The position numbers and the translations under genes were made by a program. From a virus, in the IMG/VR virus record IMGVR_UViG_3300025127_000022, positions 1-64,000 of that record: DNA of 64,000 nt, one strand, 5' to 3'. Position 1 is the first letter of the stretch. Each line of letters starts with the position of its first letter. The notes beneath the pieces are model-generated. The model was not told where the DNA came from. It searched no databases and saw only the letters and a program-made list of their open reading frames with translations. Positions 7,898 to 63,613 of the stretch are shown here, piece by piece.

Positions 7898-8608
7898 ATG
7901 CCTAAGTTACTTAACATATTAAAAGAACACATGTTACCATCTGATGTCCCATCAAACTCAGACTTAGATTTTGGTGGATTAGAAAATCTTATGGTTCAAG
8001 CTTTATTTAGACACGAGGGTGGTTGGGGAGTACCACCTAAGGCTTTTTTACTATACATTAGCCCTAGTGGAGTAATTAGAGGAATTAAAAATAGTCAACA
8101 TTCCTCACCTAGTGACCACCAATTTAGGGTAGGACAAAAAGTAAACTTATCTGATTTAATTGAGTTTGAGAATAATAGTAAGTTTGATTTACGTATGAAA
8201 GGTAGGATACGTGAAAGTAGGATGAATGAAGAAAAAAGTAATGTACATCCTATCATCACATATATGGAGAATATAAAACCCCATTATGATTTATTAGATG
8301 ATTACATCAAGTTAAGAGTTTATTTTAAGAATGCTGGATATAGTGAAGAAGATTTGAAATCAGTAAAAAGAGCACCACAGTGGGTATTTCAGATACAAAA
8401 CAGTTTTCCACTTAAGATAGAAAAAATGAAAAGAGACCTTCAAAAAATAGGAATACTTAAATTTAAGGGTTATCCTGACGGTGACGATAAAATATTAATA
8501 GATTACATTAAAAACGAACTAAAGAAGATAGACCAAGAGTTCCCAATGAATCCACCTGAAACTTCATATGTCCCACCCATAATGAAAGACGGTAGTCACC
8601 TTATTTAA
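7898..8608 (+). CDS. 236-residue protein, possibly tagged
   Basis: [16 protein letters not shown] resembles the tag only loosely. The middle part ([19 protein letters not shown], then [14 protein letters not shown]) looks like a compact beta-rich domain; the C-terminal half is helical and charged. No family is recognised. It ends by overlapping the convergent sdhB gene by four bases. Confidence 0.6.
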
Positions 8609-9345
8609 CCTACCATAGATTTTAAGTACTCTCTATTTAATCTAGCTATATTCTCTAAAGAAATGCCCTTAGGACATTCTACTTCACAAGCTCCAGTGTT
8701 TGTACAATTACCAAAACCCTCATTATCCATTTGTTTTACCATACTAACAACTCTTTCCTTAGCTTCTACTTTACCTTGGGGTAATAAAGAAAATTGTGAT
8801 ACTTTCGCCCCAACAAATAACATAGCAGAACTATTTTTACATGTAGCGACACAAGCCCCACAACCTATACAAGTTGCTGCTTCAAAAGATTTGTCAGCGT
8901 CTGTTTTGGGAATAGGTATAGTGTTTGCATCTATAACACTACCAGTATTTATTGAAATATAACCTCCCGCTTGTTGTATTCTATCAAACGCTCCTCTATC
9001 TACAACTAAATCTTTTATAATCGGGAATGCTTTTGCCCTAAATGGCTCAACGTATATTGTATCACCATCTTTAAAACTTCTCATATGTAATTGACAAGTA
9101 GTTACTCCTTTATCGGGGCCATGTGGTTCTCCATTAATATACATTGAGCACATCCCACAAATTCCTTCTCTACAGTCATGGTCAAAAGCGACAGGGCTTT
9201 CACCCCTCTTTATTAGATTGGAATTTAAAACATCCATCATTTCTAAAAATGACATATCACCAGAAATATCTTTTATCTGGTAAGTAACTATTTTACCTTT
9301 AGATTTTCTATTTTTTTGTCTCCAGACTTTTAGGGTTAAATTCAT
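8605..9345 (-). CDS. sdhB: Succinate dehydrogenase/fumarate reductase iron-sulfur subunit
   Basis: A complete 246-residue SdhB/FrdB of Bacteroidota type. All cluster ligands are present: 2Fe-2S (Cys58, Cys63, Cys66, Cys84, around [11 protein letters not shown]), 4Fe-4S ([11 protein letters not shown], residues 159-169) and 3Fe-4S ([12 protein letters not shown], Cys214, Cys220, Cys224). In cells this subunit carries electrons from the flavoprotein SdhA to quinone at the membrane anchor SdhC. Neither SdhA nor SdhC is encoded in this window. It could replace the host subunit in the host complex or act in redirecting electron flow during infection. Between a phage gene and a SET-domain gene, so the phage context is solid. 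Confidence 0.95.
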
Positions 9346-14194: not shown

Positions 14195-14583
14195 TGGAAA
14201 AGTATATCTATAGAGCTAAATTAGAGAGAGTAATCGATGGTGACACTATTGATGCTCTTATCGATGTTGGTTTCGATATCTGGGTCAAAAAACGAATTAG
14301 ATACAAAGGCATTGATACTTGGGAATCTAGAACCAGAAACCTAGAAGAAAAGAAAAAAGGTTTAGCTGCGAAAACTAGAAATCAACAATTATTGGAAGAG
14401 ATAAGTTCTAAACCAGGATTCTTTAGACTAAAATCTTACGGTGTTGGAAAATACGGTAGGGTGTTAGGTGAAATTTTTATTTTAGATAAAGACGATAAAC
14501 CTATTAGTATAAATGAAACATTAATAAAGGAGGGCCACGCCTATGTTTATGAAGGTGGTAAAAAAAAATTATTTAAAGGATGA
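14194..14583 (+). CDS. Staphylococcal nuclease homologue
   Basis: A 129-residue SNase (thermonuclease) domain. The catalytic set is visible: DGDT at 15-18, Arg36, Asp41 and Glu44 in RIRYKGIDTWE, and Arg89 in GKYGR. The family hydrolyses DNA and RNA with Ca2+. There is no signal peptide, although the genes on both sides encode exported proteins. The start shares one base with the upstream stop (TAATG), and the stop overlaps the next ATG. Host DNA degradation is the likely role. Confidence 0.9.
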   Translation: MEKYIYRAKLERVIDGDTIDALIDVGFDIWVKKRIRYKGIDTWESRTRNLEEKKKGLAAKTRNQQLLEEISSKPGFFRLKSYGVGKYGRVLGEIFILDKDDKPISINETLIKEGHAYVYEGGKKKLFKG

Positions 14584-17500
14584 AAAAGTTACTATTCTTA
14601 CTATGTTTAATACCAACTATCGTATTAGGACAAAGCAGTTGGTTTAATTTACAAATACAATATGATTTTTATGCACCGTCAGAGTCTTCAGTTCTGATTA
14701 ATGGTAATGGTGATACCGTACTCACGCATCAACCCACTCAACCATATGAGTTCTTTCAGACAATAGTATATGTAGATTCTGGAGCATTTACCGTAAGTTT
14801 ATATGATTCATTTGGAGATGGTTGGATAGACTTTAACCAAACAGATGTGTGGGTTAAAGTTTCAAATCAATGTCAAGGTTCTATACTAAATTTAGACGCA
14901 GCTTTTAATTTTACACAATTTGATACGGTAATAAACATATTACCTTGTCCCCCACCTATATTGGGGTGTACAGATACCATGGCTACAAATTATGACCCTA
15001 CCGCTTATTTAGATGATGGAAGTTGTTCATATATTTTTGGTTGTACTGACCCCAATGCTGTTAACTACGACCCTAATGCGGCGATAGAGTTAGAAGGTGA
15101 TGTGGAAATATCTTCCTGTAATTCTATATGGACACAAAATTATTTTGGGATAAATTTAAATTTTTACAATTCAAATTCTTCCGCTTTTTCTATAGGTGAT
15201 AAAATTATTGTAGGTGGAATCGACTATTGGATTGACGCTATAGTACTCCCTACCAACTGTAACTCAAATGTAGCTTTAATTTATGTTGCTAATAGTCCAT
15301 ATGCTGTTGATGGTTCATGGACTTCTGTAGGTGGAGTGTTACAAAATCCAGTTGGGTTACAAGATAATTGGTCTATTGGTGGTTGTTATTACAATCCAGG
15401 ATGTACCAACCCTATGTATGTAGAATTTGACCCTAACGCTGATTTTGATGATGGTAGTTGTCAGACACTTGCAGTATTTGGATGTACGGATAGTACCGCA
15501 ATTAATTTTAATCCCTGGGCAGATAACGATAACGGTTCTTGTATTTTACCTCCTTCATGTGGTTTCACTGAGTTTGAATGTCAAGTTTCTCTTACTCTAG
15601 ATAATTACCCAGGTGAGACTGGATGGTTAGTTACTGCGGATAATGGAACTACAGTAGATACTGTATATTATGTACCACCAGGTTCATATAACTTTGGTCA
15701 GTCTGGAACTGTAGTTAATACAAATTTTTGTGTACCAGCGAATCTTAGTACATTTATAACTTTTACTTTAACAGATTCTTACGGTGACGGTTTAGCTGGA
15801 ACTACTACTGGTGGTACTGTTGATGGTGATGTTATAGTTGAAAATATTTCATGTGGTGACACTATATTTGAGTTACCTAACCCGTCTTTTGGTAGTTCAG
15901 TTTCTAGTGATGGGACGTACTCTAGTCCATGGCCTATGTTATGTAACGGGTTGTTAATAGTTCCTGGATGTATGGACCCACAATATCAAGAATATAATCC
16001 TTTAGCTACCAATGACGACGGAAGTTGTCAAACATTACACATTTACGGATGTATGGATACCACATCATTTAACTATGATTCAAACGCTACTTCTCCAGCT
16101 TACATTAGTCCTACACAATATCAAGTAATTTTAGAAGATGACGGAGGTGATGGATGGGGGAATTCCTTTATTGGTTTACGTCAAGGGAATCAATTATGGG
16201 ATTTTAAATTAGACCCAGGAGTTTTCGTAGATACATTCTATATTGATTTAACTGTAGACGTATATCAAACACCTTTAGAGATGTTTTATTTCGAAATACC
16301 TTTACCACAACAAAACCCGTCTCAGCTCCAAATTCAAACTATTCAAAATTCAGTTGTGGTTAAAAATGATTATGGGACAATAATAGAAGAAGGGACTTAC
16401 CCTTGGGCTAATGGAAATAAACTGAAAAATTTTAATGGTCCTCAGGACATATACAACGCTATTCCTTTTGGTGGGTATGATTGTACACCCAAAATTTATG
16501 GTTGTACAGATTCTACCGCACATGTAGATTCTTATAATCCTAACGCTAATACAGATGATGGTTCATGTTTTTATAATCCTGAATGTAACAATGCAGGATT
16601 TGTTGAATTTTGGGAGGCTGATTCTACAGTGGTAGATTATTGGAGCATAGATTACTGTTACACTACTGCTATTTTTGGTTGTACTGACAGTACAATGTTT
16701 AATTATAATTCTTTAGCAAATGTAGATAATGGTTCTTGTATTCCATATATCTACGGTTGTACGGACCCTACAATGTTTAATTATAATTCACAAGCAAATG
16801 TAGATGATAGTAGTTGTGTACCTTTCACTTATGGTTGTACTGACCCTACGATGTTTAATTATGACCCAGTTGCTAATGTAGATGATGGTACTTGTATACC
16901 ATATGTGTATGGTTGTACTGATAGTACAATGTGGAATTACGACCCCTTAGCAAATACCGATAATGGGAGTTGTCAACCATATGTTTACGGGTGTATGGAC
17001 CCTAATGCGTTTAATTATAATCCTTTAGCTAATACTAATCAGGTATCCGCTAACGACTTCTCCAACCCTTGTGTCCCAGTAATTTATGGTTGTACAGATT
17101 CAACAGCATTTAACTACGACTCTAATGCTAATACAGATGATGGTTCATGTATAATAACTGTTTACGGGTGTACAGATGTTACTGCGTATAATTATTTACC
17201 TACCGCTAATACAGATGATGGTAGTTGTTTATATGACGCTGGTTGTATAGATGGTCCTGGTGTACCTTATTGGTTGAATGACACTTGTTACGCTTGGGTT
17301 ATTTCAGTAGACCCTTATTGTTGTAACAATGTGTGGGACTCCTTTTGTCAAGCAGAATATAATTTCTGTCAAGATGGTACTCCATTAAATCTAGATGAAG
17401 TAGAAGATAATGGACGTAAAATTATAGTCTACCCTAACCCAACACAAGAACTTATTAATATAAAACATAACTTAAAAACTAATGTAATAGTAGAAATTAG

Positions 17501-17636
17501 AGATATGATGGGTAAATTAGTTACCACTTCTACTAATCAAAATAAAATTGATGTATCATTTTTATCTAGAGGTTTATATAACCTAACTATTAAATCTGAT
17601 GAAATTATAGTAACTAAAAGAATTATTAAACAATGA
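14580..17636 (+). CDS. Type IX-secreted repeat protein
   Basis: A 1018-residue exported protein. Signal peptide MKKLLFLLCLIPTIVLG. The body holds 14 copies of a ~21-residue repeat, GCTD-x-x-A-x-NYxPxANxDDGSC, each with two Cys, and three DSYGDGW-type blocks (near residues 80, 400 and 520). The end (about 940-1018, KIIVYPNPTQELINI to VTKRIIKQ) is a T9SS C-terminal sorting domain. Such proteins cross the outer membrane through the Bacteroidota Type IX system and stay on the surface. For a phage this is unusual; a role in adhesion between cells or surface masking is inferred. Overlaps both neighbours by four bases. Confidence 0.9.
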   Translation: MKKLLFLLCLIPTIVLGQSSWFNLQIQYDFYAPSESSVLINGNGDTVLTHQPTQPYEFFQTIVYVDSGAFTVSLYDSFGDGWIDFNQTDVWVKVSNQCQGSILNLDAAFNFTQFDTVINILPCPPPILGCTDTMATNYDPTAYLDDGSCSYIFGCTDPNAVNYDPNAAIELEGDVEISSCNSIWTQNYFGINLNFYNSNSSAFSIGDKIIVGGIDYWIDAIVLPTNCNSNVALIYVANSPYAVDGSWTSVGGVLQNPVGLQDNWSIGGCYYNPGCTNPMYVEFDPNADFDDGSCQTLAVFGCTDSTAINFNPWADNDNGSCILPPSCGFTEFECQVSLTLDNYPGETGWLVTADNGTTVDTVYYVPPGSYNFGQSGTVVNTNFCVPANLSTFITFTLTDSYGDGLAGTTTGGTVDGDVIVENISCGDTIFELPNPSFGSSVSSDGTYSSPWPMLCNGLLIVPGCMDPQYQEYNPLATNDDGSCQTLHIYGCMDTTSFNYDSNATSPAYISPTQYQVILEDDGGDGWGNSFIGLRQGNQLWDFKLDPGVFVDTFYIDLTVDVYQTPLEMFYFEIPLPQQNPSQLQIQTIQNSVVVKNDYGTIIEEGTYPWANGNKLKNFNGPQDIYNAIPFGGYDCTPKIYGCTDSTAHVDSYNPNANTDDGSCFYNPECNNAGFVEFWEADSTVVDYWSIDYCYTTAIFGCTDSTMFNYNSLANVDNGSCIPYIYGCTDPTMFNYNSQANVDDSSCVPFTYGCTDPTMFNYDPVANVDDGTCIPYVYGCTDSTMWNYDPLANTDNGSCQPYVYGCMDPNAFNYNPLANTNQVSANDFSNPCVPVIYGCTDSTAFNYDSNANTDDGSCIITVYGCTDVTAYNYLPTANTDDGSCLYDAGCIDGPGVPYWLNDTCYAWVISVDPYCCNNVWDSFCQAEYNFCQDGTPLNLDEVEDNGRKIIVYPNPTQELINIKHNLKTNVIVEIRDMMGKLVTTSTNQNKIDVSFLSRGLYNLTIKSDEIIVTKRIIKQ
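14964..17236 (+). repeat. Coding tandem repeat, 14 GCTD...DDGSC units
   Basis: Units of roughly 60-75 bp encode the Cys-bounded repeat of the surface protein. Units from about 16675 onward are nearly contiguous and most alike, which suggests recent expansion; the earlier ones are interrupted by inserted domains. Confidence 0.85.
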
Positions 17637-19035: not shown

Positions 19036-19401
19036 ATGAAAACTTTTAAAATCTTATCTGCTTTAATATTAACATTAATGTGTTTTACCGCACAAGCACA
19101 AAGTAAAATGAATAAAATTCCTCAGTATGGGGTAGTGGTGGTAGAATTTAACGCTGGATGGAATTCCTCTAAAAATGTTACTTGGATTAACAAGTTAAAA
19201 GAGGCAGAAGTGGGGAGACTCTTGATAGACGAAAATCCTAAATTCCAATCAAAATATAAAATAGTGGTTGTGCCGACTCTAATAGTCTTTAAAGATGGTG
19301 TGGAAGTGCAAAGATTCCAAGCTAATATTATGATGGACATGGAAGCTACTTTAGAAGATGTTCAAGAGGGTGTGGATGATGCACACATGGAAGGATTTTA
19401 A
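19036..19401 (+). CDS. Exported thioredoxin-fold protein without CxxC
   Basis: A 121-residue protein with signal MKTFKILSALILTLMCF and cleavage near TAQAQ. The mature part has the thioredoxin pattern: VVVVEFNAGW (34-42), a central helix, and KIVVVPTLIVFKDGVEV (75-91) with the cis-Pro80. The active-site WCxxC is replaced by WNSSK (42-46), so it cannot do disulfide exchange. It may act as a periplasmic binding or decoy protein. It ends by overlapping a convergent tagged gene by four bases. Confidence 0.75.
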   Translation: MKTFKILSALILTLMCFTAQAQSKMNKIPQYGVVVVEFNAGWNSSKNVTWINKLKEAEVGRLLIDENPKFQSKYKIVVVPTLIVFKDGVEVQRFQANIMMDMEATLEDVQEGVDDAHMEGF

Positions 19402-19640
19402 CGTCTAAAACCTTTTATTTCAGTTCTAGTTCCCATTCCAATCATAGTATTAATAAAATTAATCCTTTCTTCTATTTTGTTCTTAGCGATTTGTAAAATT
19501 TCTAAATCAAATTCTGAGTCTACCCAATTTACAAAATCCTCACTACTAAAAGAAGCTTCATAATTTGTCAAATCGACCTCTTCTTCTATTTTATTTAGAA
19601 GTTTTTGATACTGGTGTTCTGTTAAAATAACTTTAGACAT
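19398..19640 (-). CDS. Small tagged protein
   Basis: An 80-residue protein with a clear tag (MSKVILTEHQYQKLLNKI, then EEE). The remainder is a helical pair ending KGFRR. A TATTTATA promoter reads into it from the right. It is among the smallest payloads of the tag family. Confidence 0.65.
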   Translation of the reverse strand: MSKVILTEHQYQKLLNKIEEEVDLTNYEASFSSEDFVNWVDSEFDLEILQIAKNKIEERINFINTMIGMGTRTEIKGFRR

Positions 19641-26460: not shown

Positions 26461-27741
26461 ATGACAAAAATTTTAATCTCAGAAAAACAATTAGAAAGAC
26501 TAAGTAAAATAGTTTTAAAAGAACAGAATAGACCTGTTACTGTAAGTCCAGGAGAATTGGTTCAGATGTATATGACAAACGACTTAAATAAAATTCTTTT
26601 AAGTAAACAAGATGAACTCGCGGGACAATATTTTATAGCTATTGTTGGGAATGATGAACAAATACAATTAAGATATGGTGAAAATGGTAGTGAAGGAGCT
26701 GAATTTGAAATGGAAGATTTTGGTACGAGAGGAAAAAGATTTAGACTACCCATTGGTAGATGGTCTATAACAGTACCTACTAACGATATTGATTTAATAG
26801 CTGAATTAGAAAATTCAGAACCTTATGGGAAAGATTATAAAGCGTTTTTTGCTGTTAATGACGATTTAACTAATTACGTTAAAAGAGAAATAAATAGAGT
26901 TAAAGTTAAATTTTTATTCTATATAGATAGACAAGCATCTAGTGACGGTTTCGGAGGTTTTACATTTTACCAATTACCAGGGAGGAAAAAACCTAAAGGG
27001 GTACCCATAGTTAATTTAGGGCAATCTTTCCCTATAACTGAAATTACTCCACTAGGAAGTAAAAGAGGTTCGAGAGCTAATACGATGGGACTCAAACTTG
27101 GTAAAAGAATTTACGGTGAGGTTTATGGTTCAGGACTACAAGCAAAACTCGAAAGATTACAATTAACTATCCCAGCTGAATTATTACCCCAAAAACCAGG
27201 AGGCGACCCAATAACAACACCAGATATACCAGAAGAAGATATCATCATACCTATATTTTCAGTTGTGGGTGCTAATTTACCATATGCGGATAATATGATT
27301 ATGCCTTACTTTAACAAATATCCACAAGCTGAAGAACATTTTGGTAAAATAGTTGAAGCTTTTGTAAAATATATAAATGCGGGTGGTGGTGACAAACTTA
27401 CTAATGTAACTATTAAAGGTAGTGCAGATTCAGCAGCACCAAATGAAAAGGTTCCTAGTGGCTATAATAAATTAGACCATCCAGGAGGTAAACTTTTCGG
27501 TGGAATTCCAAAAACTGACTTAAAAGGAAGAAACCAATGGTTGGCAGATAATAGAGCAAAACAATACGCTAATGCTTTAATTACAGCCATTAAGGATAGA
27601 ACTGGATTTGATTTGAAGATAGAAGTATTACCTGGAGATAACTACTATGGTCAAGGAAGTAGTAAACGAGGTCAGGAATATAGAAAAATTACATTAACAC
27701 CAAACGCTCCAACACACAAGGGTCCATCACAGAAAAAATAA
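26461..27741 (+). CDS. Tagged protein with OmpA-like C-terminal domain
   Basis: A 426-residue protein. Tag MTKILISEKQLERLSKIV then LKEQ. The middle is beta-rich. The C-terminus (~285-415) has the OmpA/Pal-type layout: YFNKYPQAEEHFGKIVEA, VTIKGSADSAAP, NQWLADNRAKQYANALI and a final YRKITLTP strand. This fold binds peptidoglycan. I infer a packaged or virion protein that meets the cell wall during entry. The OmpA assignment rests on pattern, not on a conserved catalytic residue. Confidence 0.7.
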   Translation: MTKILISEKQLERLSKIVLKEQNRPVTVSPGELVQMYMTNDLNKILLSKQDELAGQYFIAIVGNDEQIQLRYGENGSEGAEFEMEDFGTRGKRFRLPIGRWSITVPTNDIDLIAELENSEPYGKDYKAFFAVNDDLTNYVKREINRVKVKFLFYIDRQASSDGFGGFTFYQLPGRKKPKGVPIVNLGQSFPITEITPLGSKRGSRANTMGLKLGKRIYGEVYGSGLQAKLERLQLTIPAELLPQKPGGDPITTPDIPEEDIIIPIFSVVGANLPYADNMIMPYFNKYPQAEEHFGKIVEAFVKYINAGGGDKLTNVTIKGSADSAAPNEKVPSGYNKLDHPGGKLFGGIPKTDLKGRNQWLADNRAKQYANALITAIKDRTGFDLKIEVLPGDNYYGQGSSKRGQEYRKITLTPNAPTHKGPSQKK

Positions 27742-34545: not shown

Positions 34546-34553
34546 TATTTATT
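34546..34553 (+). promoter_or_regulatory. TATTTATT phage promoter, leaderless type
   Basis: 3 nt before the ATG at 34557. Confidence 0.55.
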
Positions 34554-34556
34554 GGT

Positions 34557-35966
34557 ATGAAAATTAAATTATCTGAAGAACAGTATAAAAAATTGATGAA
34601 CGAAATAGGTGGGTATGATGACCCAGCTACAGGTATGAGAGATGAACAAGCTATGATGGATAGAGTAATCGAAGCTTATAAAAATCTCACAAACGGAATG
34701 AATATACTTAGTGATTTAATTCCAGGTGTCATAGTACAAGACCGTCTGAGAAACCAACTGATGGAAATTAGAGAATCTTTAGTTAATCCGTTAAATGGAT
34801 TTAGTGCACTATTGAGGGATATCCATGGTCAACAAGATGAAGGACATATGGAAGATACAGATATCGAATTAGATGAAGGAAGAAAAAAGAAAAGAAAATC
34901 TAAAAAGAAAAAATCTAAAAAGAAAAAATCTAAAAAAGGTGATAGGTGTACTAGAATAGCTAAAAGAAAATATGATGTATGGCCTTCAGCTTATGCGTCA
35001 GGTGCGGTAGTTAGATGTAGGAGAGGAGAGATTTGGAAAGGACTTAACGAAGAAGATATTTCAAATGTTAATGAAGGTTGGTCTGACGAATATAAAAAAT
35101 CCATAGATTGTAATAACCCAAAAGGATTCTCACAAAAAGCTCACTGTGACGGTAAAAAAAAAGCGTCACTAGAAGAAGCTAAAAGAAAAAAAAGAAAATC
35201 AAAAAAAAGAAAGTTAACTTCTAAACCTAGTTCTGAAGGCAGTTTACGTGATTGGTTTAAAAGAAAAGGTGCTAAAGGTAGTACTGGAGGTTGGGTAGAT
35301 TGTAACGCACCCGATGGTGATGGTGGTTATAAATCCTGTGGTAGACAAAAAGGCGAAAAAAGAAGTAAGTATCCCGCTTGTAGACCAACACCGTCCGCGT
35401 GTAAAAGTAAGGGCAAAGGTAAAAAATGGGGAAAAAAAGCTTCACGTAACGAATCTTTAATGTACCACCTAAAAAATAATATTCCTTTAAATGAAAGTGT
35501 TTTTAGATATGGGAGTGACTCTCACTTTAACTTAATTAATGACGCTAGAAATTTATTTAAAGAAAATGAGTTACAATTAAATCCTGTAGAAAAAGATTTG
35601 GTGGAAAGTGATATGGGTAGATTTGGTTATTACCAAAATGAGTTAGTCCCGTTAGACTTACCAATGGAACTTAATGAAGCTGAATATAGAGGTAAAAAAG
35701 TTACATTAAACAAACCTAAAAGAGGTGGGTCTAAAGCGTATTACGTTTACGTTAAAAATCCAAAAACAGGGAATGTTAAAAAAGTGGCTTTTGGTTCTTC
35801 AGGTCTTAGAGCAAAAATTAATAATCGAGGTGCTGTTAAGAGTTTTGTAGCACGTCATAGATGTAAAGAAAAAAACGATAAAACTAAACCAGGTTATTGG
35901 TCCTGTAGATTACCTAGATATGCTAAATCTTTAGGATTATCTGGTGGAGGTGGACAATGGTGGTAA
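34557..35966 (+). CDS. Tagged basic protein with viral Cys domains
   Basis: A 469-residue protein. Tag MKIKLSEEQYKKLMNEIG. After a helical part comes a block of KKRKSKKKK repeats (~104-124), then RCTRIAKRKYDVWPSAYA, a second KKRKSKK block, SLRDWFKRKGAKGSTGGW with CNAPDGDGGYKSC (a domain I believe is DUF5872, found in phages and giant viruses), and a C-terminal domain with YYVYVKNPKTGNVKK and HRCKEKNDKTKPGYW. The basic blocks suggest binding to packaged DNA. DUF naming is from memory; the tag and basic blocks are seen directly. Confidence 0.7.
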   Translation: MKIKLSEEQYKKLMNEIGGYDDPATGMRDEQAMMDRVIEAYKNLTNGMNILSDLIPGVIVQDRLRNQLMEIRESLVNPLNGFSALLRDIHGQQDEGHMEDTDIELDEGRKKKRKSKKKKSKKKKSKKGDRCTRIAKRKYDVWPSAYASGAVVRCRRGEIWKGLNEEDISNVNEGWSDEYKKSIDCNNPKGFSQKAHCDGKKKASLEEAKRKKRKSKKRKLTSKPSSEGSLRDWFKRKGAKGSTGGWVDCNAPDGDGGYKSCGRQKGEKRSKYPACRPTPSACKSKGKGKKWGKKASRNESLMYHLKNNIPLNESVFRYGSDSHFNLINDARNLFKENELQLNPVEKDLVESDMGRFGYYQNELVPLDLPMELNEAEYRGKKVTLNKPKRGGSKAYYVYVKNPKTGNVKKVAFGSSGLRAKINNRGAVKSFVARHRCKEKNDKTKPGYWSCRLPRYAKSLGLSGGGGQWW

Positions 35967-35970
35967 TAAC

Positions 35971-36231
35971 ATGAATTTTCCATTTAAAGAACATACCCAA
36001 GATGGGTACCACATTAGAACTTTTTCACAAAAAGTAGATAGTGAAGAATTAATGTGGCATAGAGACAAAGAAGATAGAATAGTGGAATCTGTTGGTGACA
36101 CTAACTGGATGATTCAACTAGATGACAAATTACCACAACCACTAACAGAAAAAGTATTTATACCCAAAGAGGTGTATCACAGAGTAATAAAAGGAAATGG
36201 TGATTTAACAGTAAAAGTTAAAAAATTATGA
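35971..36231 (+). CDS. Small cupin-like protein
   Basis: An 86-residue protein, MNFPFKEHTQDGYHIRTF, with LMWHRDKEDRIVESVG, WMIQLDDKLPQPL, VFIPKEVYHRVIKG and LTVKVKKL. This is the strand order of a small cupin with WHRD and HRVIKG as possible metal-contact regions. Phage homologues of this type are common, with unknown role. A longer open frame from 35944 overlaps the upstream gene and is rejected. It overlaps the SOD start by four bases. Confidence 0.65.
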   Translation: MNFPFKEHTQDGYHIRTFSQKVDSEELMWHRDKEDRIVESVGDTNWMIQLDDKLPQPLTEKVFIPKEVYHRVIKGNGDLTVKVKKL

Positions 36232-36875
36232 AAATTAGAATAACAGAGTCACAATATAATTTAATTCTAGAAGGTAAAGAAGATAACTTTAAAAGAGTTA
36301 AACTTCCTTATGACTATTCTGATTTAGAAAAATTTGTCGGTAGAGAAACCATGTGGGAGCACTATAATCGTCATTATAAAGGTTACACCACCAAACTTAA
36401 TGAAGCGTTTTCCCATAGAAAAAATCCACCTAAAGATATTGTAGGTATTATTAAAAACATTGGTAGGTACGATAAATTTACCAGAGATAATGCGGGTGGT
36501 TATTATAATCATAGTTTATTCTGGAATTACTTAAGTCCTAAACCTACTAAACCCTCACCAGAATTAAGTAAAAAAATAAATGAGGATTTTGGGAGTATGT
36601 CTAAATTTAAAAAGAAATTTGACGAAGAGTCTGCTAAAGTTTTTGGTTCAGGTTGGTGCTGGTTAGTATTTAAAAGTGGTAAACTCAAAGTTATTACTAC
36701 ACCAAACCAAGATAACCCTCTTATGGATAATTTAGGTAAACCTCTTTTAGGGTTAGATGTGTGGGAACACGCTTACTATTTAAATTACATGGCAGACCGT
36801 AAAAAATACATTAAAAATTTCTGGAAAGTAGTTAACTGGGATACAGTTTCTAAAGAATTTAATTTGGTAGTTTAA
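36228..36875 (+). CDS. Tagged Fe/Mn superoxide dismutase
   Basis: A 215-residue protein: an N-terminal tag MKIRITESQYNLILEGKE (1-18) followed by a complete iron/manganese SOD. Metal ligands: His45 (MWEHYNRHYKGY), His95 (NHSLFWNYL), Asp177 and His181 (LDVWEHAYYL). The SOD core markers GSGWCWLV and DNPLMDNLGKPLLGLDVWEHA are present. It converts superoxide to H2O2 and O2. The tag is the same as on neighbouring non-enzymatic proteins, so I infer packaging in the head and delivery to the cell with the DNA, where it could blunt an oxidative burst. Overlaps the cupin gene by four bases. Confidence 0.92.
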   Translation: MKIRITESQYNLILEGKEDNFKRVKLPYDYSDLEKFVGRETMWEHYNRHYKGYTTKLNEAFSHRKNPPKDIVGIIKNIGRYDKFTRDNAGGYYNHSLFWNYLSPKPTKPSPELSKKINEDFGSMSKFKKKFDEESAKVFGSGWCWLVFKSGKLKVITTPNQDNPLMDNLGKPLLGLDVWEHAYYLNYMADRKKYIKNFWKVVNWDTVSKEFNLVV

Positions 36876-36919: not shown

Positions 36920-37201
36920 ATGACAGTAAAAGAATTAAAAGAAAAATGTAGAGAACAAGGTCTGAAAGTTTCAGGTACTAAACAACAACTACTTGACCGA
37001 TTAAATAATCCTGACAGTGAAGATGTCATGACTCTACCTAACTCTAATAAAGTAATCGTAGGATTTGCACTAAAAGACCCCAACAAAATTAAACTTAATC
37101 CCTTACTTCTTAAAGGATTCGCTCATTTCAAGTATTATTCTTGCGATAAATGGTATTATGAAGTTAATAAAGAAAAATGGGCTGAAGCGTTAAAATCTTA
37201 A
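36920..37201 (+). CDS. SAP-domain DNA-binding protein
   Basis: A 93-residue protein. Residues 1-32 (VKELKEKCREQGLKVSGT then KQQLLDRL) form a SAP helix-turn-helix motif that binds AT-rich DNA. The C-terminal part (IVGFALKDPNKIKLNPLL, then WYYEVNKEKW) looks like a WGR- or BRCT-unlike small alpha/beta piece that I cannot name. A host-like promoter and DNA binding fit an early regulator or replication role. Confidence 0.75.
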   Translation: MTVKELKEKCREQGLKVSGTKQQLLDRLNNPDSEDVMTLPNSNKVIVGFALKDPNKIKLNPLLLKGFAHFKYYSCDKWYYEVNKEKWAEALKS

Positions 37202-42660: not shown

Positions 42661-42984
42661 ATGGGAAACGCATTTAAATTAAGTCTTCATCTTGAACATA
42701 TTGTAAAAGATATAGTTAACAAGAAAAAAGTGCACTACACTGAAGAAGGTTTAAGAGAAAACATATTTACCTTTCTTGATACTATTTATGATAATAGGAA
42801 GAAGTTTAAATTGACCGAAGCAACAAAATTAATTAAGGGAGGTTTTAGGGACCAATTAATTGAAGAAGCTGTATGTGAAATGTCAGATGATGAAGATTAT
42901 CTTACTTCTACTATTAATAAAAAAATTAATAACCTTTCAAAACACTACATAAGAGAGTGGATAAATAAAAAAATAAGCAAATGA
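42661..42984 (+). CDS. 107-residue helical protein
   Basis: MGNAFKLSLHLEHIVKDI then VNKKKVHYTEEG is a tag-like start with basic residues. The rest is helical (RDQLIEEAVCEMSDDEDY, HYIREWINKKISK). It heads a block of five genes, all with tag-like starts. Unknown function. Confidence 0.6.
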   Translation: MGNAFKLSLHLEHIVKDIVNKKKVHYTEEGLRENIFTFLDTIYDNRKKFKLTEATKLIKGGFRDQLIEEAVCEMSDDEDYLTSTINKKINNLSKHYIREWINKKISK

Positions 42985-43301
42985 AAAAAGTAATAAGACT
43001 TACTGAATCTGAATTAGTTAGAATTATAGAGAATTTAACCTTAGGTCATGAATTAGAAGAAAAAAAAGAAACCTCTAAAACAAAAAGTGAACCATTACCT
43101 AAAAGTGCTAATCCCGTAGCTAAAGATATTTTTAAAAAAATTGAAGGACATTTAAATGCAACTAAAGGAGCTTTCAGCTTAAAAGATAAAAATGTAACTG
43201 AAAATTTTGAAGACGATAAGTTGTATAAGAAATGGAATTGGAAAACCAATAATGGTAAAGTTAATGTAACTGTTACTGTTGATGTTAAAATGAATGATTA
43301 A
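42981..43301 (+). CDS. Small tagged protein
   Basis: A 106-residue protein with a model tag MKKVIRLTESELVRIIEN then LTLGHELEEKK. The mature part is Lys-rich with a beta-strand end (WNWKTNNGKVNVTVTVDV). It overlaps the gene before by four bases. Confidence 0.65.
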   Translation: MKKVIRLTESELVRIIENLTLGHELEEKKETSKTKSEPLPKSANPVAKDIFKKIEGHLNATKGAFSLKDKNVTENFEDDKLYKKWNWKTNNGKVNVTVTVDVKMND

Positions 43302-48127: not shown

Positions 48128-48183
48128 ATAATTCAAAGAACTTATATAAATACACCCGATAAATTAAAAAATTTATCTTAGGG

Positions 48184-48260
48184 TAGACGGAATGGGACTT
48201 GAACCCACATGTAACCAGTTACCCTTTCTACAAGGTATAAGCTTGAGGGGATACCCGTCT
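48184..48260 (-). tRNA. tRNA-like element, anticodon unclear
   Basis: A 7-bp acceptor (AGACGGG with TCCGTCT), discriminator A and a normal T arm (GTGGG-TTCAAGT-CCCAT) are clear. A short variable arm GTAAC-TG-GTTAC is possible. However, the D arm and a 7-nt anticodon loop cannot be drawn in the normal way; CCTTGTAGAAAGG suggests GUA (Tyr) or UGU (Thr) at best. GGTAT/ATACC can pair instead. It may be a degenerate tRNA or an unusual structure. Confidence 0.45.
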
Positions 48261-48268
48261 ATATCTAG

Positions 48269-48342
48269 TACACCCGATAGGATTCGAACCTATGACCTAC
48301 TGCTTAGAAGGCAGTTGCTCTATCCAGCTGAGCTACGGGTGC
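48269..48342 (-). tRNA. tRNA-Arg (UCU)
   Basis: A 74-nt canonical tRNA: acceptor GCACCCG / CGGGTGT, D arm GCTCAGCTGGATAGAGC, anticodon arm ACTGC-CTTCTAA-GCAGT with anticodon TCT, T arm ATAGG-TTCGAAT-CCTAT. CCA is not encoded. It reads AGA, by far the commonest Arg codon in these genes. Confidence 0.95.
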
Positions 48343-48350
48343 ATGTTGGG

Positions 48351-48436
48351 TACTCGGGGCGGGAATCGAACCCGCACGGACCTCACGGTCCAACAGATTT
48401 TAAGTCTGTCGTGTCTACCTATTCCACCACCCGAGC
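48351..48436 (-). tRNA. tRNA-Leu (UAA)
   Basis: An 86-nt class II tRNA: acceptor GCTCGGG / CCCGAGT, anticodon loop with TAA after CAGACT, long variable arm TTGGACCGTGAGGTCC, T arm GCGGG-TTCGATT-CCCGC. It reads TTA, the main Leu codon here. CCA is not encoded. Confidence 0.95.
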
Positions 48437-48535
48437 ATGTTTGTGTGATGATTACAGGACAAATATAGAATATAATTTCAATTAAACCAAATTAAAAAAG
48501 TTTAAATTTTATTTTTTTGTTTAAAATATTATTTG

Positions 48536-61877: not shown

Positions 61878-61885
61878 TATTTATT
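61878..61885 (+). promoter_or_regulatory. TATTTATT phage promoter, leaderless type
   Basis: 3 nt before the ATG of the terminase gene at 61889. Confidence 0.55.
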
Positions 61886-61888
61886 GGT

Positions 61889-63613
61889 ATGGGAATGACT
61901 AAACAAGAACTCATACAAGAATATGTTAAGTGCCATGGTAACACACCATATGCACTTAAAACTTATTTGCAAACTTACGATAATACACAACAAAAACATG
62001 TACCATTTGAATTGTTTCCAGAACAAAAGGAGATGATAAATGATTTTGAAAATCATGCTGACAATATAGTACTAAAATATAGACAAGCTGGAGTTTCAAC
62101 AGCAACAGCTGGATGGATTTCTAAAAAACTACAATTTGCTTCAAAAGAGTCACCAGAAAAAATTCTTATACTTGCTAATAAATTAGATACTGCCACAGAA
62201 ATGGCAAACAAGATAAAAGGTTTTTTAAGACAATGGCCTGATTGGATAAATGTAGGATTTGATAAAGACAAAAATTCACAAAAACATTACAAACTTAATA
62301 ATGGGTCTGAGGTAAAAGCAGTTGCGACTTCAGTAGATGCACTTAGAGGTTATACCCCAACCATATTAGTATTTGATGAGGCGGCTTATATAGAATCTGG
62401 TGCGGATTTATGGGCGGCATGTATGGCGTCTTTAGCTACTGGAGGTAAAGTAGTTGTAATTTCTACACCTAATGGATTTGACCAAATATACTATGAAGTT
62501 TTTGACCAGTCAGTTAGGGGATTAAATAATTTTAAAATAAGTTATTTAAGTTGGTATCACGACCCTAGATTTACACAAGACCTAAGATGGGTCAAAACTA
62601 AAGATATTGTACATTTCCTTTTAAATAGAGATGAATATAAGGAAGAAGATATATTAGTAGATATAGATAAAGATAACTATCAAACTTATTTAGATAAGGG
62701 TTACAAACCATTTTCAGATTGGTTTGAAGCTATGTGTAAAAAATTAAAATTTGATAGACGAAAAATATCACAAGAGTTAGAGTGTGCTTTTTTAGGTTCT
62801 GGAGATAATGTAATTAACAGTACAACCATGGACCAACTACAGGAACATATTTGTGAACCTACAGAAAAATGGGTAGGTAATGGTTTATGGGTTTGGAAAG
62901 AACCAATACCGGGTCACAAATATATTATGGGTATTGATGTTTCTAGAGGTGATAGTGAAGATTCTAGTGGTTTTGTTATAATAGATTTTGATGACCGAGA
63001 AGAAGTTGTAGAATATTTAGGTAAAATCCCTCCTGATATTGTAGCAGATTTAGCTAATAAATGGGCTACAAAATACAGTTGTTTTGTTGTTATAGACATT
63101 ACAGGTGGAATGGGTGTAGCTACCTCTAGAAAAATGTTAGAACTGGGGTATAAAGATTTTTACTACGATGGGGTAAAACCAGATGAGATGTGGAAATTTA
63201 ATCCTGACACTAAAACTCCAGGTATAAACTTTAATAGTAAAAGAGCTCAGTTGGTACAAGCTTTAGAAGAACAATTAAGAACAGGCTTTAAAATAAGGTC
63301 ACAAAGATTGATGAATGAATTAAAAACATTTGTTTATATTAATGGTAGACCTGACCACATGAAAGGTCATCATGATGATTTAATTATGTCTTTAGCTATG
63401 GCACTTTATGTAGCACAAAACTCATTCACACAATTAAAAAAGAATGTAGCTCAAGCAAAAGCAATGATAGATGCGTGGGTTACAGATGAACGTAAATTTA
63501 ATACAACCAAGGGAGAACCAGTTTTTAAACCTGGAAAAGTGAGTGGTAGAGCTTTACCACCATCTTCTAATGACCCTAAAGACTATTTATGGATGTATAC
63601 AGGATTAAAATAA
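61889..63613 (+). CDS. Terminase large subunit
   Basis: A 574-residue T4 gp17-type terminase. ATPase: an adenine-motif-like FELFPEQKEMI (40-50), Walker A KYRQAGVST (63-71), Walker B LVFDEAAY (160-167), coupling motif ISTPNG (191-196). Nuclease (RNase H fold): Asp350 in MGIDVSRGD, Asp403 in VIDITGG and Asp497 in HHDDLIMSL. It pumps DNA into the prohead and cuts concatemers, so headful packaging is likely. The Walker A lacks the classic GKT and reads G-V-S-T, as in related phage terminases. The small subunit is not identified. Confidence 0.95.
   Translation: MGMTKQELIQEYVKCHGNTPYALKTYLQTYDNTQQKHVPFELFPEQKEMINDFENHADNIVLKYRQAGVSTATAGWISKKLQFASKESPEKILILANKLDTATEMANKIKGFLRQWPDWINVGFDKDKNSQKHYKLNNGSEVKAVATSVDALRGYTPTILVFDEAAYIESGADLWAACMASLATGGKVVVISTPNGFDQIYYEVFDQSVRGLNNFKISYLSWYHDPRFTQDLRWVKTKDIVHFLLNRDEYKEEDILVDIDKDNYQTYLDKGYKPFSDWFEAMCKKLKFDRRKISQELECAFLGSGDNVINSTTMDQLQEHICEPTEKWVGNGLWVWKEPIPGHKYIMGIDVSRGDSEDSSGFVIIDFDDREEVVEYLGKIPPDIVADLANKWATKYSCFVVIDITGGMGVATSRKMLELGYKDFYYDGVKPDEMWKFNPDTKTPGINFNSKRAQLVQALEEQLRTGFKIRSQRLMNELKTFVYINGRPDHMKGHHDDLIMSLAMALYVAQNSFTQLKKNVAQAKAMIDAWVTDERKFNTTKGEPVFKPGKVSGRALPPSSNDPKDYLWMYTGLK

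Follow-up and report, generated by a model that had tools for sequence, protein, structure and literature searches.

The window, by which we mean the whole stretch of 64,000 bases analyzed here (bases 1-64000 of a 76,275-base IMG/VR virus record), comes from a T4-like phage that probably has Bacteroidota as host. The ORF at 36228-36875 on the plus strand starts with ATG and encodes an Fe/Mn superoxide dismutase (SOD) of 215 aa. It belongs to a transcription unit whose first gene (34557..35966, +) encodes a K-rich protein that is tagged, i.e. provided with an N-terminal leader, here MKIKLSEEQYKKLMNE. This protein matches phrog_7595 and phrog_727, both annotated as unknown function, and in other phages its type of conserved domain is combined with six or more different leaders. 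The second ORF (35971..36231, +) encodes a small conserved protein of 86 aa, counted from ATG, and its stop codon overlaps the SOD start (ATGA). No PHROG match was obtained for the 86-aa protein, which in other phages is fused to or located beside the 34557-type domain; the succession of the 34557 C-terminal domain and the 86-aa protein is kept in Flavobacterium phage immuto (101270-102086) and Methylophilales phage Melnitz. Directly 3' of the SOD gene lies an ORF for a small SAP-domain protein (36920-37201, +; 1.3e-11).

A promoter-like element, TATTTATTGGT (34546..34556, +), abuts the ATG of the first gene of this unit, and a near-identical TATTTATTGGT-ATG element (61878-61888) precedes the terminase gene. 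In five related phages, the motif TATTTAT was located mostly 10-13 or approximately 21-27 bases before the first genes of transcription units, and its occurrence there was far above its density (window, G004, G006, G007 and G012). It was present upstream of 17/22 tagged transcription units vs 106/342 (p 2e-5), and we read it as a putative late-type promoter element, the timing being presumptive. The T4 late promoter TATAAATA was rejected as the promoter of these units, the enriched element being TATTTAT on the coding strand. A Bacteroidota-type TAnnTTTG was noticed by eye before some other genes.

The preliminary description had named a complete Fe/Mn SOD with four metal ligands at this position, which our analysis bears out. 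Pfam identified both domains in the window SOD, Sod_Fe_N (4.9e-15; 56.2 bits vs a curated cut-off of 27) and Sod_Fe_C (1.2e-41; 141.3 vs 20.9 bits), and in an alignment of 26 phage and cellular SODs the ligands H45, H95, D177 and H181 as well as the second-sphere residues H49, Y53, Q161, W143 and E180 were invariant. The expected residue set, consisting of the active-site Tyr/His/Gln and the dimer-bridging Glu (E180), is thus present, and the active-site Gln occupies the C-terminal NQDNPL position, which is typical of Mn enzymes. The closest solved structures are the Mn-SODs of Sphingobacterium sp. T2, with 5a9g as top match of a PDB sequence search (1.7e-58), and the predicted fold superimposes on 6gsc with a TMt of 0.92 (AF2 model, pLDDT 88.6, core ordered). 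Pfam, PDB sequence, fold and ligands together delimit a Mn-type SOD catalytic core of residues 21-215 plus stop (36288..36875, +). Compared to the 80%-identical relative L004, this core has a dN of 0.12 and a dS of 2.45, indicating strong purifying selection. Judged from sequence and model, the enzyme is apparently catalytically intact.

In front of this core, residues 1-20 (MKIRITESQYNLILE followed by GKEDN; 36228..36287, +) make up a proposed capsid-targeting propeptide that is likely cut after E15 (ILE/G). The window SOD has 25 residues before the LPY anchor, while cytoplasmic Bacteroidota SODs have about 7, and the leader is missing from cytoplasmic cellular SODs. The Pfam match begins at residue 22, and the N-terminal sequence is exactly as first described. 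In the AF2 model residues 1-20 have a pLDDT of 46-55 and form one helix (residues 7-15) outside the ordered core. Against L004, the leader has a dN of 0.41 vs 0.12 for the core, and with a dN/dS near 1, estimated from few sites, its residues tolerate substitution. The first 40 codons of the window SOD allele, whose protein is identical to that of L002, contain no further ATG, GTG or TTG start, so internal initiation cannot yield an untagged form there, and an alternative downstream start was ruled out for this allele. As the ATG that overlaps the upstream stop codon is the sole start nearby, the leader should be translated.

SOD relatives were found at 22 viral loci. The SODs most similar to that of the window (L002-L004) begin with the leader MKIxI(S/T)ESQY(N/K)LxLE or close variants, while their sister SODs (L006-L012, some on contigs of up to 298 kb) begin with M(K/R)xLIKKIL(K/R)E...(L/I/V)xEA. 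More distant phage SODs have other extensions (L015, L017 and L018) or none (L019, L021 and L022); the latter three and the leader-less SOD of Vibrio phage 2.275.O indicate that a phage SOD needs no packaging. In a tree of 93 rows, 15 phage SODs clustered together and were separated from 77 cellular SODs, of which nearly all came from Bacteroidota. This placement makes a Bacteroidota source probable, and a cellular Bacteroidota Mn-SOD likely gave rise to the phage gene. The two leader types correspond to sister clades on this tree, so the leader switched type at least once yet was kept. The swap is a single event on the tree; every SOD of the tagged clade has an extension, which was replaced by another member of the leader set but never lost.

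The leader is not confined to SODs. Within single genomes, the N-termini of different genes were much more alike than internal or shuffled segments; the numbers of pairs scoring at least 40 (N-termini vs internal vs shuffled) were 44 vs 2 vs 1 in G006, 28 vs 0 vs 1 in G007 and 8 vs 1 vs 0 in G000. Leader patterns matched 58/1828 N-termini and 0 internal pseudo-starts, a count that is only illustrative because the patterns were designed on N-termini. In a scan of IMG/VR DNA, in which all counts are lower bounds, the pattern MKKxIRLTES(D/E)L was detected in at least 120 stretches and its reordered residues in 0, and the second leader, MKNLIKKILxE, gave at least 59 matches. Chance similarity was rejected on the basis of the internal, shuffled and reordered controls. 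The leader was not found in the cultured-phage collection, nor did any cultured phage turn out to encode homologues of three leader-bearing proteins from the window, and a search for virion proteomics of these uncultured phages found none. The evidence throughout is sequence-based, and the virus records are uncultured and possibly fragments.

Proteins were considered dissimilar if ungapped identity across the 40 residues past the leader was below 35%. Among 111 dissimilar carriers, columns 13-22, which lie outside the search pattern, read xRIVKRVI(K/N)E, and the information content was 3.0 bits at E22, followed by 1.1 and then 0.3. This drop means that homology stops directly after (I/L/V)xE, the form of a T4 prohead-protease site. 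Of the 111 carriers, 108 have I, V or L at position 20, and 96 have E22 together with I, L, V, M or T there; P1' was mostly Q, N or S in this family, compared with A or S at the T4 sites examined. The SOD's own subclass, MKIK(I/L)TESQ(Y/F), was present on 26 mutually dissimilar proteins. The strict putative cleavage motif (I/L)xE, which is short, occurred in 12/26 tagged N-termini vs 77/671 (p 2e-5), and the relaxed motif [ILVFM]xE was dropped as cleavage evidence due to a background of about 42%. The loci L287-L464 and L585-L646 encode mostly orphan proteins with the common N-terminal leaders MKK(I/V)IRLTES(D/E)LxR(I/L)VKR(V/I)I(K/N)E, MKNLIKKIL(K/R)E or MKIK(I/L)TESQ(Y/F). These proteins are candidates for injection by uncultured T4-like phages and form a very large family.

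Further tagged ORFs of the window are located at 42981..43301 (+, leader MKKVIRLTESELVRIIENL), 26461..27741 (+, MTKILISEKQLERLSKIVLKE) and 19398..19640 (-, MSKVILTEHQYQKLLNKIEEE). The SOD is the sole recognised metabolic enzyme with a leader within the window. Ten other enzymes or chaperones (thymidylate synthase, dCMP deaminase, polynucleotide phosphatase, thioesterase, cytidylyltransferase, SET protein, nuclease, ClpB, DnaK and SdhB) begin at their domain without a leader, which sets the SOD apart from the remaining host-like enzymes of the phage. The SdhB ORF (8605-9345, -) encodes a full-length succinate dehydrogenase/fumarate reductase iron-sulfur subunit (NF005746, 2.2e-131); no other subunits of this complex were noticed in the window. 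A Pfam match was obtained for only some dozen of 117 dissimilar leader carriers, including SOD and peptidoglycan hydrolase or peptidoglycan-binding domains. A further carrier, from a related 232-kb SOD-bearing phage, is a hydrolase with M23, SLT and peptidoglycan-binding domains (L065:16728-18170, +), possibly a head-delivered wall enzyme. Another, an AAA_33/Zeta-toxin-like kinase (L006:7021-7686, +), is encoded shortly downstream of a leader-bearing SOD, and in Flavobacterium phage immuto a leader-like N-terminus was observed on a 5'-nucleotidase-like protein just below the Pfam cut-off. Phage immuto, whose host is Flavobacterium sp. LMO8, has leaders of similar style together with the syntenic locus, and no SOD was noticed in it. 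Other genes of the window include an ORF of 1018 aa (14580-17636, +) whose product is apparently secreted and ends in a type IX secretion C-terminal sorting domain (Por_Secre_tail, 1.1e-13), from which the phage may use the T9SS of its Bacteroidota host, as well as three tRNA genes (Ile-tat, Arg-tct and Leu-taa; 48182-48437, -). A defence-system search gave no match.

The T4-like head module starts in the window with the terminase large subunit (61889..63613, +) and continues just past it with a T4-type S77 prohead protease (record positions 67358-68074), an ORF in scaffold position (68179-69888) and the gp23 capsid protein (69926-71749), whose candidate propeptide site HLINE/ATSS matches the FLTE/A of T4 in position and form. 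S77 protease and gp23 are also present in several SOD-bearing relatives of the phage. Among leader contigs of at least approximately 60 kb, S77 was detected in 22/31 with the first and 6/14 with the second leader. Random contigs of at least 60 kb had it in 7/17 cases (p 0.065 against the first leader), so co-occurrence with the protease alone is weak; it was dropped as stand-alone proof and only its terminase-conditioned version is useful. A T4-type terminase was present in 27/28 S77-positive leader contigs. Two terminase tests detected none in 10 S77-negative leader contigs, which probably just do not include the head module. No leader contig with terminase and without S77 was found, the terminase check having covered one of the eight S77-negative second-leader contigs. 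A leader common to unrelated proteins, swapped on the same cargo, with a protease-like end and in a phage with S77 and gp23 corresponds well to the packaging-type tag that the preliminary description had proposed.

We suggest that the SOD is prohead cargo, brought in by a T4-style leader, trimmed and delivered with the DNA, a reading to which we assign a probability of roughly 0.6 on the strength of gene anatomy. This anatomy fits the capsid-targeting sequence (CTS) system of T4 in the tested respects except for leader homology, which makes prohead cargo the most likely role, and a kind of leader common to more than 100 unrelated phage proteins likewise indicates that the SOD is probably packed into the head and delivered with DNA. 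The SOD would be expressed, presumably late, from the operon that it shares with the tagged 34557 protein and that has the TATTTAT-type element. By analogy with the internal proteins of T4, the amphipathic leader would attach the SOD, once folded, to the scaffold core of the prohead. The S77 protease encoded by the phage would then cut past the terminal (I/L)xE, here ILE/G. The SOD would stay among the DNA in the head and enter the host with it, where, within minutes of the start of infection, it might remove superoxide and protect Fe-S enzymes and the incoming DNA, or alternatively counter an oxidative response. For the broader proposal that large T4-like phages of Bacteroidota possess a modular injection system, with a few interchangeable protease-trimmed leaders and a large, fast-changing, mostly orphan cargo including SOD, we consider the chances to be about even.

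Alternatively, the leader could be a docking or localisation signal for a site other than the head (replication compartment, tail/baseplate or membrane) to which the SOD is recruited. Some leader carriers are peptidoglycan hydrolases or proteins with peptidoglycan-binding domains, and such proteins frequently belong to the tail or serve in lysis; muralytic domains also occur in head proteins that are ejected, e.g. T7 gp16. The end of homology at (I/L/V)xE fits removal by a prohead protease, and each tested leader contig with a terminase also has S77, so we regard docking elsewhere as unlikely. The evidence for packaging would equally accommodate a SOD that acts in the particle, shielding the genome stored there or the proteins of the head against oxidation, rather than as a delivered effector. 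We know of no superoxide-making metabolism in a particle and give this role little credence. Comparable T4 cargo is ejected and enters the host along with the DNA (PMC7411985, PMC12373910). An ordinary auxiliary metabolic gene that acts in the infected cytoplasm and has an incidental N-terminal extension would be in line with the existence of untagged phage SODs and the numerous host-like enzymes of phages. It is improbable given that the extension is exchanged and not lost throughout the tagged clade, that the ten other enzymes of the window are without leader and that the leader recurs genome-wide and across phages. Finally, a Sec or lipoprotein export signal, common at the N-termini of cellular relatives, was rejected as highly implausible, since exported Bacteroidota SODs have obvious hydrophobic signals, while the charged, amphipathic N-terminus of the window SOD (mean hydropathy -0.16) contains neither a hydrophobic stretch nor a lipobox.

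If packaging of the SOD is true, the phage would arm its host against superoxide at the onset of infection, ahead of any reading of phage genes. By implication, the early phase of infection in these bacteria would be limited by an oxidative burst or by oxidative damage. The leader alone would then allow the injected proteins of uncultured phages to be listed. As a general handle on such candidates, the leader family flags more than 100 phage proteins, otherwise unannotatable and mostly without a known domain, as candidates for injected effectors, and it opens the injected proteome of uncultured jumbo phages to direct testing. Virion SODs (chlorovirus, Cu/Zn) and T4 CTS cargo are known already. 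Within the phages searched, it is fair to speak of an injected effector of a new kind, as the preliminary description did; a SOD packaged in virions has precedents in PBCV-1 and giant viruses (PMC7019647, PMC9405923).

With regard to the enzyme, cellular Bacteroidota Mn-SODs such as that of Sphingobacterium sp. T2 (5a9g/6gsc) share fold, ligands and about 46-53% identity with the window SOD. The cellular enzymes, in contrast, begin at the domain or with an export-type N-terminus, and none was seen with the leader. Jumbo phages with an Fe/Mn SOD also include Wroclawvirus (MIJ3, PA5oct) and Vibrio phage 2.275.O, at about 30% identity. Both MIJ3 and Vibrio phage 2.275.O have the S77 protease. The MIJ3 SOD (L025, 2953-3501) begins with MNDSIKKYISIAEA / MNDSIKKYISIAEAASS, which by eye resembles a T4-type CTS; the main text of the MIJ3 proteomics paper does not mention this SOD.

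Like the SOD proposed here as cargo, PBCV-1 A245R and megavirus-type SODs are virus-encoded and packaged, with superoxide inside the infected cell as their presumed target. A245R differs in belonging to a eukaryotic virus and in its Cu/Zn fold, the window SOD being Fe/Mn according to Pfam, and to our knowledge no prohead leader or protease is associated with it. PBCV-1 virions package their SOD, and superoxide build-up in infected cells was below that with SOD-less virus (PMC7019647); a giant-virus SOD provides a further precedent (PMC9405923). In phage P1, an N-terminal signal sends the anti-restriction protein DarB to the head (PMC9024508), although signal and cargo differ from those described here.

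A close parallel is T4, in which capsid-targeting propeptides bring internal proteins into the prohead and are removed by gp21. For foreign enzymes to be packaged and delivered, the N-terminal 10 residues of IPIII are enough (PMC9026906, PMC5694885, PMC7411985), and the leader is the only part shared by Ip1-3, which inhibit host restriction systems (PMC12373910). T4 cargo is known to be packaged, whereas packaging of the window SOD is a proposal based on genes. The T4 CTS MKTYQEFIAE and the window leader are not alignable and by inspection share shape only, and in contrast to T4 there are several leader classes per phage group and an antioxidant metabolic enzyme among the cargo. As with IPI, IPII, IPIII and Alt of T4, a short N-terminal leader with a hydrophobic-x-Glu end is found on unrelated proteins, and both systems combine an S77 protease (gp21 in T4) and a gp23 head with cargo that varies between relatives.
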